From NCBI GenBank assembly GCA_017308475.1, contig JAFKEU010000005.1, forward strand, positions 434,001 through 498,000: a stretch of 64,000 nt of DNA, read 5' to 3'. This document shows, in pieces, positions 35,128-38,720 of this stretch (within the stretch, counting starts at the first letter, position 1; each line of letters opens with the position of its first letter). The DNA comes from Alphaproteobacteria bacterium (GTDB lineage: Bacteria > Pseudomonadota > Alphaproteobacteria > Micropepsales > Micropepsaceae). Made by a program: the position numbers and the translations under genes. Below the pieces are notes generated by a model. It saw only the letters and a list, made by a program, of their open reading frames with translations, was not told the origin of the DNA and made no database searches.

Positions 35128-36081
35128 TCAGCCCCCGGCCCAGTCGCGGATCAGGCGATGGGCGATGGCGATGGGCGTGGGCATGCGAACGCCGTCCTCG
35201 ATCGCACCCTCCAGCCTGGCGCGGGCCTCGGCCCTGCTCATCCAGCGCGCCTCGGCGATCTCCGCGCCATCCACGGTGAAATCCCGCGACAGAGCCTGGG
35301 CATAACAGCCGATCATCAGCGACGACGGAAACGGCCAGGGCTGGGAGGCGTGATAGGTCACCGCGCCTATCCTGATACCGGCTTCTTCTTCCAGTTCGCG
35401 CGCCACCGCGTCTTCCACCGTTTCGCCGGGCTCGATGAAGCCGGCGAAGGCCGAATGCAGGCCATTGGCGAAGCGGGCGTTGCGTCCCAGAAGGCAGTGA
35501 TCGTCCAAACCATCCGTCCCACGCAAAATGGGCAGCATGATCACCACCGGATCAGTGCGGGGGAAATGGTCGGCGCCGCAATGGGCGCAGTGCCGCCGAT
35601 AGCCGCCATCCTCGGCCGTGGTGGCGCCGCCGCAATTGGCGCAGAAGCCGTGGCGGTGATGCCAGTCGATCAGCGCCTTGGCCTGGCCGGCGATGGCGCA
35701 ATCGCGCGCCGGCAATATCATCGCGGCCGGCCGCATCTCCTGGAACGCGGCGCCCTCGAACACCGGCTTGGGATCGTCAGGCAGATCGACCGCGAACAGG
35801 GCCTCTTCGCCCTCCAGCCCCAGAAAGACGGTCAGGCAGTCTTCCCATTCGGGTTGCCCCGGCAGGAGGGCCGCGGCCTCGCCCGCAAGCAGCGGCTGGT
35901 TCTTCCAGAAGGGCAGGAACAGGCCGCGCACCCGCTGCGCCGCCAGCCAGGCGGCATTGCCGCGCTTTTCGCTGGCCCGATTCAGAGGATTGCCGCCAAA
36001 GGCGATGGACTTGGTCATCGGGACCCAGTTGGTAGAGCAGCCGGAACCGGCGCGGAAGCGGGAAAAGCGCAGGTCCGCCAT
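35128..36081 (-). CDS. nudC: NADH pyrophosphatase NudC
   Basis: A 317-aa Nudix hydrolase of the NudC type, cutting NAD(H) (and NAD caps on RNA) to NMN and AMP. A zinc ribbon CANCGG...CAHCG lies near residue 155, the Nudix box GFIEPGETVEDAVARELEEEAG at about residue 215 and the NudC-specific SQPWPFPSSLM just after. Start chosen at ATG 36081; an ATG 21 codons in (36018) is also possible, and the frame is open further upstream through the SRP-like relic. Confidence 0.9.
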   Translation of the reverse strand: MADLRFSRFRAGSGCSTNWVPMTKSIAFGGNPLNRASEKRGNAAWLAAQRVRGLFLPFWKNQPLLAGEAAALLPGQPEWEDCLTVFLGLEGEEALFAVDLPDDPKPVFEGAAFQEMRPAAMILPARDCAIAGQAKALIDWHHRHGFCANCGGATTAEDGGYRRHCAHCGADHFPRTDPVVIMLPILRGTDGLDDHCLLGRNARFANGLHSAFAGFIEPGETVEDAVARELEEEAGIRIGAVTYHASQPWPFPSSLMIGCYAQALSRDFTVDGAEIAEARWMSRAEARARLEGAIEDGVRMPTPIAIAHRLIRDWAGG

Positions 36082-36134
36082 GGCCCCGCCGGACTCGCAA
36101 TTCCCGCCACAACCCCCTATACCCCGGGCTGAAG

Positions 36135-36213
36135 CCGGCGGGCGAAGCTGTCGCCAACCCGGTCCGGTCGGGAACGGTGAGCGCGAAAAGCGGAAGCCCG
36201 ACAGGGCTTTCGC
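36135..36213 (+). repeat. partial second copy of the SRP RNA
   Basis: Bases 36135-36176 match 36283-36324 of the SRP RNA gene at 41 of 42 positions, 148 bases apart, in the same direction. The single difference (36165 C versus 36313 A) changes the invariant GTCAGGTC to GTCCGGTC, and the GAAGCAGC part of the asymmetric loop is missing, so it should not bind Ffh normally. Its 3' part instead forms another hairpin (36190-36213). It lies in the nudC 5' region. Confidence 0.75.
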
Positions 36214-36263
36214 CGCGCGAACGCCGTACCGAATTTGTGACTCGCAATCGTCCACCGCCAAAC

Positions 36264-36270
36264 CTATATA
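36264..36270 (+). promoter_or_regulatory. possible -10 element of the SRP RNA gene
   Basis: CTATATA ending four bases before GGGG, six bases before the predicted RNA start. No convincing -35 is seen at the normal distance. Low-confidence call. Confidence 0.3.
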
Positions 36271-36274
36271 GGGG

Positions 36275-36368
36275 TTGAGAGTCCGGCGGGCGAAGCTGTC
36301 GCCAACCCGGTCAGGTCGGGAACGAAGCAGCCGTAACGAATTGGCTTCGGGTCGCTCGGGCTCTCACC
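36275..36368 (+). ncRNA. ffs: 4.5S-type signal recognition particle RNA
   Basis: About 94 bases. Ends pair as TGAGAG (36276-36281) with CTCTCA (36361-36366). The conserved Ffh-binding hairpin is present: GTCAGGTC, GGAA tetraloop, then GAAGCAGCCGTAACGA, as in bacterial small SRP RNAs. The tetraloop is closed by G-C (GGGAAC) where C-G is usual. The RNA binds Ffh to target membrane proteins co-translationally. Location just before dnaX on the same strand is typical in alphaproteobacteria. Ends are estimated. Confidence 0.88.
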
Positions 36369-36420
36369 TGTCCACAATACATTTCGTATCGCGGGCGCTG
36401 CGCCTTGCTATAGTCGGTCC

Positions 36421-38127
36421 ATGGCCCCGCCTTCCGCCCCCTACCGCGTTCTGGCGCGCAAATACCGCCCCACTGACTTCACCGGCTTGATCGGGCAGGA
36501 GGCGCTGGTGCGCACCCTGTCAAACGCCTTCGCCACCGGCCGCATCGCCCATGCCTTCATGCTGACCGGTGTGCGCGGGGTGGGAAAGACCACCACCGCG
36601 CGCATCATCGCCCGGGCGCTCAACTGCATAGGCCCCGACGGCAAGCGCACCGAGCCCACCATCCATCCCTGTGGGCAGTGCGAGCCCTGCACATCGATTT
36701 CCGAATCGCGCAATGTCGATGTGCAGGAGATGGACGCGGCCAGCCGCACCGGCATCGACGATATCCGCGAGATCATCGAGGGCGTGCGTTATGCCCCGGT
36801 GGCGGCACGCTACAAGGTCTACATCATCGACGAAGTGCACATGCTGTCGAAACAGGCCTTCAACGGCCTGCTCAAGACGCTGGAAGAGCCGCCGCCGCAT
36901 GTGAAGTTCATTTTCGCCACCACCGAGATCCGCAAGGTGCCGGTCACGGTGCTGTCGCGCTGCCAGCGTTTCGACCTGCGCCGCATCGATTCCGCCGAAC
37001 TGGCGGCCTATCTGGCCACGCTGGCGCAGAAGGAAGATGTCGCGATCGAGGACGGCGCGCTGGCGCTGATCGCGCGCGCCGCCGAAGGATCGGCGCGCGA
37101 TTCGCTCTCCCTGCTCGATCAGGCCATCGCGCACGGTGAGGGCGGTATCATCAACGCGCAGGCAGTGCGCGCGATGCTGGGGCTCGCCGATCGTGGCCGG
37201 GTGCTGGACATATTCGAAAAGCTGATGGGTGGTGATGTCGCTGCCGCGCTTGCCGACCTGAAGACATTATATGACGCAGGCGCCGACCCCCTGGCGGTGA
37301 TCCAGGACTTGCTGGAAACGGTGCATTTCCTGACCCGCGTCAAGGTCGCGCCCGGCGCGCAGGGTTTTTTCGACGGCGGCTCGGGCGAGGCCAAACGCGC
37401 TGTCGCGCTGGCCGACAAGCTGTCGGTCGCCGCGCTCACCCGCGCCTGGCAGATCCTGATGAAGGGGCTGTTCGAGGTGCGCGACGCCACCCGTCCGATC
37501 CTGGCCTGCGAGATGGTGCTGATCCGCCTGGCCTATGCCGCCGAACTGCCGCCCACCGACAAGCTGGTGAAGGACCTGCTGGACAATCCCGGCGCTGCGC
37601 CGCGCATATCTTCGCCCCCGCCCCCTGCGGGAGGGGGCAATCGCGCGCCCAGCGCGCGATTGGGGGAGGGGGCTTCTGCCGCGCAGCGCCTGTCGCCGCA
37701 AAACATGCCCGAAGGCACGCCCAGCCTGCGCACCCTGGAAGACATCATCGCGCTGGCCGCGGCCAACAACGCGCCGATCCTGCGCGTGGCGCTTGAGAAC
37801 TACGTGCATCTGGTGCGGCTGGAGCCCGGGCACATTGAATTTCGTCCTCATCCGCGTGCGCCGCGCACTCTGGCCGGCGATCTGGCGCAGAAGCTGAAAG
37901 ACTGGACGGGTGTGCGCTGGAGCGTTTCCATCGCGCGCGAGGGTGGAGCACCCACCCTGTCCGAACAGAAACAGGCCGCAAAGACCGCGCGCTTCGAAAT
38001 CGCCGCGCAGGAACCGATGGTGCGCGCCGTGCTGGACCGCTTTCCCGGCGCCGAAATCGTCTCGGTGCGCGACATCGCCCGGGATGACATCGCCGCCGCC
38101 ATGCCGGAAGGCGATTCGGAAAGCTGA
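36421..38127 (+). CDS. dnaX: DNA polymerase III subunit gamma/tau
   Basis: A 568-aa clamp-loader ATPase. Domain I has [23 protein letters not shown], Walker [12 protein letters not shown] (about residues 50-60), a zinc site with CIGPDG..CGQCEPC, Walker [10 protein letters not shown], the sensor SRC and [17 protein letters not shown]; the tau-type C-terminal region follows. At residues about 401-420 a palindromic repeat is read in frame as a Gly/Pro/Ala-rich linker. The ATG is 52 bases after the SRP RNA; the stop overlaps the recR start. Confidence 0.95.
37616..37673 (+). repeat. palindromic element read in frame inside dnaX
   Basis: GCCCCCT/AGGGGGC around GCGGG, then a perfect 10-bp stem AATCGCGCGC-CCA-GCGCGCGATT (37639-37661) and GGGGGAGGGGGC. 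Encoded as [18 protein letters not shown], between domain III and the tau C-terminus, where length is tolerated. Its CCCCCTCCC arms resemble the intergenic elements at 8267 and 34.75 kb. Confidence 0.65.
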
Positions 38128-38720
38128 TGGCCGCAGGCTCTGAAATCGAACGGCTGATCCAGCTTCTGGCCCGGCTGCCGGGCCTCGGGCCCCGCTCGGC
38201 CCGGCGCGCCGCGCTGGTGCTTCTGAAAAAGCGCGATGTGCTGCTGGAGCCGCTGGCCCAGGCGATGCAGGATGCCGCCGCCGCCATCCGGCCCTGCGAA
38301 GTGTGCGGCAATCTCGATACGGTCAGCCCTTGTTCGATCTGCACCGACGCGCGGCGCGATCCCAATCTGCTCTGCGTGGTCGAGGATGTGGCCGACCTGT
38401 GGGCGCTTGAACGGGCCGGCGTCTTCCGCGGCCGCTACCATGTTCTGGGCGGGGCGCTGTCCGCGCTGGATGGCGTCACCCCCGAACGGCTGAACGTGGC
38501 CGCGCTGCTGGACCGGGTGAAGCACGGGATCGATGAAGTGATCCTGGCCATGAATGCCACCGTCGAAGGCCAGACCACGGCCCATTACCTGATGGACGTC
38601 CTGGAAGGCGGGGACTTAAAGATCACCCGCCTCGCCCATGGCGTGCCGGTGGGCGGCGAACTGGACTATCTGGATGAAGGCACACTGTCGGCGGCCTTCA
38701 AGGCAAGGCGCGGGCTCTAG
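38127..38720 (+). CDS. recR: recombination mediator RecR
   Basis: A 197-aa RecR that loads RecA with RecO/RecF at gaps. Helix-hairpin-helix [17 protein letters not shown], the four-cysteine zinc motif CEVCGN..SPCSIC (about residues 57-73), and a Toprim domain with [35 protein letters not shown]. Overlaps dnaX by one base (TGATG). Note that ybaB, which usually sits between dnaX and recR, is absent. Confidence 0.95.

Follow-up and report, generated by a model that had tools for sequence, protein, structure and literature searches.

A partial SRP RNA gene copy, split by a hairpin beside the intact gene in a Micropepsaceae genome, as the probable trace of a small DNA repeat

SRP RNA is normally the product of a single-copy, essential gene, and a second, partial copy of that gene directly in front of the first raises the question of what the copy is and how it arose. 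It lies between nudC and dnaX in the window, the whole 64,000-nucleotide stretch of DNA analysed here (genome G000), and a first-pass annotation had proposed that it could be a decayed duplicate, a source of gene conversion or a regulatory RNA acting as a competitor of SRP RNA in the nudC leader. The observation as a whole proved to be real and its interpretation was partly supported: the copy is probably the remnant of a second, tandem SRP RNA gene whose tip was split by a hairpin related to a dispersed palindromic repeat (E) and whose 3' half was lost. The features of the locus are given in Table 1.

Table 1. Features of the SRP RNA locus in the window and partial duplicates beside E elements of the same genome (G000)
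Feature	Position or locus	Length	Strand	Basis or remark
nudC (NADH pyrophosphatase), divergent neighbour	35131..36018		-	Pfam NUDIX, NUDIX-like, Zn_ribbon_NUD; first ATG of matched protein at 36018
SRP upstream region, probable relic copy: GACTCGCAAT 36092-36101, CCTATA 36116-36121	36092..36134		+	Direct repeat; 34/49 against 36239-36282
SRP RNA 5' part, probable relic, ending at GGAA tetraloop; GTCAGG to GTCCGG	36135..36176		+	41/42 against 36283-36324
Hairpin insert E' (GGTGAG..CGAACGCC) replacing AAGCA strand of Ffh-binding loop	36176..36225		+	Fold, covariation; inside R2 match 36161-36237; probable E kinship by shared ends and by G072
SRP-derived tail GCCGTACCGAAT 3' of insert; first three bases common to insert end	36223..36234		+	Compare GCCGTAACGAAT
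Upstream region of working SRP RNA gene (GACTCGCAAT ... CCTATAT)	36239..36273		+	Putative promoter
Small SRP RNA gene, presumably working	36274..36371		+	RF00169, 60.8 bits
dnaX, downstream neighbour	36421..38127		+	Pfam DNA_pol3_gamma3 and others
recR, next after dnaX	38127-38720			RecR domains
nadE duplicate	L191 (C13:307560-307654) and L193	63 nt
greA 3' end duplicate	L195 (C15:99042-99136)	100 nt		E between complete greA and partial copy
tRNA-Gly(ccc) 5' end duplicate	L194 (C3:12730-12825)	21 nt
Unnamed stretch, duplicate		70 nt

Lying 148 bases apart, the copy and the SRP gene share 41 of 42 bases, and the A-to-C change and the absence of the AAGCAGCC strand were both as first described. 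The doubled stretch, however, is longer than the 42-base block recognized at that stage: GACTCGCAAT precedes the gene as well as the copy, so that the doubled unit begins at about 36092, and the upstream parts of the two agree in 34 of 49 aligned columns. After GGGAACG the SRP gene continues with AAGCAGCCGTAACGAAT, whereas the copy continues with GTGAG..CGAACGCCGTACCGAAT, and a 50-nt hairpin stands where the Ffh-binding AGCA strand is expected. The copy had been said to be followed by a hairpin of its own; the fold is indeed strong (47 nt at 36176-36222, -28.5 kcal/mol, z = -4.6), but it is an insert within the copy, as SRP sequence resumes past it with GCCGTACCGAAT before the upstream region of the real gene begins at 36239. 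Tails similar to GCCGTACCGAAT are present in the copies of other genomes. The small bacterial SRP RNA (Bacteria_small_SRP, RF00169) is thus the source of the upstream region, the 5' part and the GCCGTAMCGAAT tail of the copy, which differs from it in lacking the 3' half, the AGCA strand and an Rfam match.

The Ffh-binding loop of SRP RNA consists of GTCAGG and AGCAGCC strands around a GGAA tetraloop. The copy has GTCCGG in place of the first strand and lacks the second, whereas the strict motif is present in 61 of the 62 working genes of the genus. A covariance-model search, proposed earlier with the expectation of one full and one truncated match, gave the full match, which passed the RF00169 gathering score, but the truncated one was absent: at the copy Rfam returned no SRP match even at an E-value of up to 1, and the working gene was the sole SRP match. 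When 36100-36270 was searched against its own genome (E-value up to 0.001) two places were found, the query itself and the SRP gene, ruling out a dispersed SRP-derived repeat. An assembly artefact is unlikely because the same layout occurs in other assemblies, including that of G028, which is a single contig.

The extent of this arrangement was determined in 69 genomes of the genus, 62 of which had an RF00169 match, one apiece under stricter search filters. The remaining seven (G004, G019, G031, G061, G078, G081 and G088), two of them more than 90% complete, gave no RF00169 match, and their SRP gene may be missing, unassembled, altered or lost to the filters. Of the 62 SRP loci, 34 were read fully and 10 partly and the other 18 were covered by motif and model scan alone; a model built from 11 split copies, that of the window among them (R2), was used to scan all 62. 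In 15 loci, and in none of the other 47, a partial SRP copy was found that is interrupted by an insert at one common site, which falls after the GGAA tetraloop and before the GCC closing the Ffh loop; the count refers to copies with an SRP core, since those without it escape the R2 and motif scans. Ten copies lie upstream of the SRP gene (G000, G010, G026, G028, G032, G062, G073, G077, G080 and G084) and five downstream (G017, G063, G069, G072 and G090, with a short upstream fragment in addition in G017), and mainly the 5' side of SRP RNA is retained in the former and the 3' side in the latter. No second insert-free SRP core was found in the 62 loci by the R2 scan, which detects such cores and gave one in each, the SRP gene. 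The window copy scored 71.2 bits for the R2 order of SRP tip, hairpin and GCCGTAMCGA, a match that follows by construction; weak R2 matches in G067 (E-value 0.21) and G030 (0.058) were by eye unlike SRP copies.

GTCAGG is intact in 61 of 62 working genes (GTCAGA in G085) and in 11 of 15 copies, the window copy being one of the four in which it is broken, indicating that the copies are drifting as SRP RNAs. Together with the lost Ffh site, the lack of an SRP family match and the recurrence of such relics at 15 of the 62 loci, this supports the earlier suggestion of a decayed duplicate. The split copy would then be unused as an SRP RNA and persist as a relic. Two further features of the copies were seen by eye or by position: in G084 (L129) three tandem hairpin-split SRP copies, spaced 149-155 nt, precede one SRP gene, and in G080 (L126) a second, different palindrome lies in the 5' domain of the upstream SRP copy.

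Outside the genus the arrangement was sought with R2 in 385 genomes sampled in the class (E-value up to 0.01). Matches were obtained in 21 genomes, 19 of them outside the genus, where 15 matches were 36 nt long, the length given by insert-free SRP genes; of these extra-genus matches, those of G053 and G038 were compared with SRP coordinates. Four were longer (G101, G435, G130 and G142), the first three without an Rfam SRP match. No credible split copy was found outside the genus in this class sample, in which strict filters may lose weak matches. An earlier pattern scan of contigs, with a gap limit of 34 that is too short for the inserts of the window and of G028, gave four matches, of which L096 and L097 are SRP loci and L094 and L095 are not.

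One observation against a relic is that the hairpin of the insert is better conserved than would be expected of a defunct copy. Its identity exceeds that of dnaX 4-fold sites in nine of nine species pairs (0.86-0.94 against 0.63-0.75; P from 7e-5 to 0.03, the pairs not being independent). The stems of the insert also covary. In an alignment of 11 copies, from which those of G010, G026, G032, G062 and G072, with their differing inserts, and a single G084 copy out of three were excluded, 10 cells are changed on both sides, a number reached in none of 500 shuffles; five pairs show such changes, none of them in helix 1, and that number was reached in 8 of 500 shuffles. In addition, GACTCGC, which in 54 of the 62 SRP genes of the genus stands no more than 110 nt 5' of the tip motif and is therefore read as a putative part of the SRP promoter, also precedes the copy in six (G000, G026, G028, G077, G080 and G084) of the ten loci whose copy is upstream. 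These data would suit a retained functional RNA with an SRP-derived core (GGTCAGG..hairpin..GCCGTAACGAAT) that would be made from an SRP-like promoter of its own and would act by protein binding or by pairing with another RNA. We consider this unlikely, as the SRP fold is lost, four of the 15 copies have a broken GTCAGG, a copy is absent from 47 of 62 loci, and copies lie on either side of the SRP gene with different ends lost. The identity comparison takes in recognisable copies only, and high identity is likewise expected if the insert spread recently; covariation by a weaker measure, further pair types, is ordinary (64 of 500 shuffles as high). A consensus scan revealed no promoter-like site and a single terminator-like site, at 35951, which is away from the copy and not after it. 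The more specific proposal of a competitor RNA in the nudC leader is unsupported on these grounds and because the copy, on the plus strand between nudC (-) and dnaX (+), is antisense to any nudC leader.

The reading of the copy as a split relic rests also on what the hairpin is. E is a dispersed palindromic repeat of about 83 nt that opens with GTGAG and a stem, continues with two hairpins and CGAACGCC, and closes with a final hairpin, GCCGCGAGC..GCGAGCGGC; four sample E loci gave no Rfam match at E-values up to 1. A model made from 20 copies (R1) gave 22 matches below an E-value of 0.01 in G000 and, across the genus at up to 0.001, 5-61 matches in 29 of 69 genomes, one match in ten and none in thirty. 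In an alignment of 69 copies fitted to the model, 98.5% of the cells pair and 196 are changed on both sides, compared with 59.6 in shuffles. Among 1305 cells there are 11 G-T and 6 A-C, and this low G-T excess would fit a DNA palindrome more than an RNA under selection.

The insert of G072 is a full E (76.7 bits, E-value 7e-19 with R1), including the 3' hairpin GCCGCGAGC..GCGAGCGGC. Most other inserts have the ends GGYGAG..CGARCGCC with a hairpin between them and lack the last E hairpin; the window insert is of this type, with GGTGAG..CGAACGCC and a closing hairpin at 36176-36225 and no GCCGCGAGC..GCGAGCGGC. R1 gave five weak matches in the window (E-values 0.029-0.41), none of them at the copy, and of all SRP-copy inserts detected that of G072 alone. 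Since R1 misses the short inserts and seven of the 15 copies are in genomes with at most one E match (G010, G026, G028, G032, G062, G077 and G084), the kinship of E' with E is probable, not proven. E' would be a shortened E, and a deletion between GCCG repeats would convert a full E insertion to the short form. E elements also lie just downstream of the SRP gene or copy in G001, G025, G035, G036 and G063 (L059, L081, L090, L091 and L137).

The short insert was itself considered as a dispersed repeat and rejected, the pattern GGYGAGN{14,44}CGARCGCCG having 5 matches in G000 against 3 in the control; the five include the SRP insert itself and, at C13:281452, one match that contains a short palindrome. 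The same pattern gave 65 matches against 17 in G028, 59 against 19 in G029 and 36 against 7 in G062, an excess that is perhaps due to coding bias, the listed matches being mostly coding-like by eye.

Outside the SRP locus E was found beside other partial duplicates. In G000, 4 of the 20 E elements tested adjoin partial duplicates (Table 1), and in these four cases the left duplicate runs exactly up to the first base of E and the right one follows 24-42 nt past the end of E. The tRNA-Gly and greA genes beside E are both complete and nadE is open to the limit of the locus (489 aa). At L191/L193 nadE is preceded by two E elements 214 nt apart, the second of which has a copy of the nadE start on either side; at L194 E follows right after the 21-nt tRNA copy and the complete tRNA gene starts 38 nt further on. 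In a search of 30 relatives for greA, 27 gave a match to nearly the whole gene, with no second piece of greA among the matches listed. Both greA copies of G000 are about equally close to the greA of 13 relatives, and the partial one is therefore not simply a fast-decaying pseudogene.

The flush position of the duplicates was then assessed in larger sets. In the first, 75 of 99 E rows were used, the rest being either an element already represented by another locus or a match that was weak, incomplete or irregular; duplicates were flush at the E 5' end in 7 of the 75, a set that includes the four G000 cases that prompted the rule. Seven of its eight best flank pairs were flush, the exception being L178 (score 105), a tandem locus that contributed two of the eight. 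The control for this set had its 99% point at 27, its 99.9% point at 49 and a top score of 262, which is taken to come from neighbouring E elements. In a fresh set of 60 elements, 2 were flush at a score of at least 30, against a fraction of 0.00028 of 3540 control pairs, and two of the three best flank pairs were flush, L333 being the one that was not. At the sensitivity used, 126 of the 135 elements had no flush duplicate. The bridge 3' of E was also considered as a copy of the gene's continuation and rejected, since for three of the four cases in G000 its score was similar to that of the alternative, with 25 to 20 in L199.

The SRP copy of the window has the same layout as these E cases, namely a gene part, a hairpin, a short bridge and an intact gene, with the one difference that its bridge is SRP sequence. 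Insertion may thus be tied to a local duplication that leaves one copy of the gene intact. Tentatively, and with less than even confidence, we suggest that E is a mobile palindrome whose insertion into genes is coupled to target duplication of variable length, so that an intact gene is kept, and that the SRP tip is a favoured site. REP elements, which are moved by RAYT, are likewise dispersed hairpins with a short conserved 5' word. A RAYT/Y1 transposase as the mover of E was rejected because Y1_Tnp (PF01797) had no match in G000; it is present in 3 of 29 E-rich genomes and in 15 of the other 40.

The intact neighbour of the remnant could be its former tandem partner or a newcomer. The origin of each remnant was taken as its best match over 61 working SRP genes, with G085 and the G062 copy left out. 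The downstream remnant of G072 is nearest to the working SRP gene of G073 (0.90) and ranks its own only 53rd of 61 (0.56), and the upstream remnant of G073 is nearest to G074, G072 and G014 (0.82-0.83) with its own at rank 25 (0.72). The remnants of G069, G063 and G090 are also closer to the SRP of other genomes than to their own, and those of G017, G080 and G032 have a foreign best match too, at low identity (0.59-0.68). Such affinities, and the G000 partial greA being about as close to 13 relatives as the intact greA, would fit xenologous replacement, in which a foreign SRP gene recombined in beside the native one and the displaced native gene became the relic. This origin, compatible with the copy being a relic, appears doubtful: it does not by itself explain the insert, the ranking in G000 is a tie (own 0.77, G025 0.77), and an ancestral tandem pair accounts equally well for G072 and G073, whose mirror-image remnants place both SRP types in the same chromosomal order. 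That order is what reciprocal loss from a tandem SRP pair would leave, with foreign replacement as the alternative. On the other hand, the copies of G028, G077, G084, G010 and G026 are nearest to their own SRP gene, as would be expected of in situ duplication more than of an old pair. The mixed affinities of the remnants (own, foreign and tied) make it likely that more than one event lies behind them.

A plain tandem duplication homogenised by gene conversion, with the hairpin there by chance, would account for these five own-nearest copies and for the contrast in the window between the 41/42 RNA block and the adjoining 34/49 upstream part (Fisher p = 5e-4), but it is very improbable, since among 71 cross-genome pairs of working SRP genes whose 42-nt blocks agree at 0.95 or better, 30 reach no more than 0.72 identity upstream, and a chance hairpin leaves the single insertion site in 15 of 62 loci unexplained. 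Gene conversion, for which the copy had been suggested as a source, is thus not required: the RNA block evolves slowly in all these genes, and a 41/42 match is within what may be seen between alleles of two species.

Palindromic repeats in RNA genes are a known kind, reported for Rickettsia in PMC2229807, which describes Rickettsia palindromic elements (RPE) fused in the tmRNA and M1 RNA genes and states that such inserts may be neutral for function. By this description RPE resemble E' as short palindromic repeats within an RNA gene; they differ in that RPE inserts are possibly function-neutral, whereas in the window the copy that is split is also incomplete and has an intact gene next to it. 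The same paper describes YPAL/RU-2 of Yersinia as a small repeat with internal inverted repeats, no terminal TA motif and target duplications of variable size, 3-26 bp (PMC2229807). E resembles it, again by description and in a different organism, as a small repeat with internal inverted repeats and putative target duplications, although the matched length of the flush duplicates beside E is 21-100 nt. In the open-licence PMC literature searched, no report came up of split bacterial SRP RNA genes, of repeats recurring at the SRP gene or of partial gene duplicates flush with a palindromic repeat.

The tip split at one site in 15 loci, with an intact gene adjoining, is a natural record of a palindrome meeting an essential RNA gene. 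If duplication is part of insertion, a tiny non-coding repeat would have a gene-sparing route of spread that can be tested, and E could enter essential genes such as those for SRP RNA, tRNA-Gly, GreA and NadE with the host spared. The case in the window appears to be a trace left by a small DNA repeat and not a novel regulator, and SRP-like fragments near an SRP gene should not by default be annotated as new regulatory RNAs. As a minor observation on E itself, many elements (L192, L260, L263 and L152) start, by eye, at an apparent stop codon (GGG TGA G), and at these apparent stops the 5' flank is very similar in G000, G073, G016 and G012, as if E supplied the stop.
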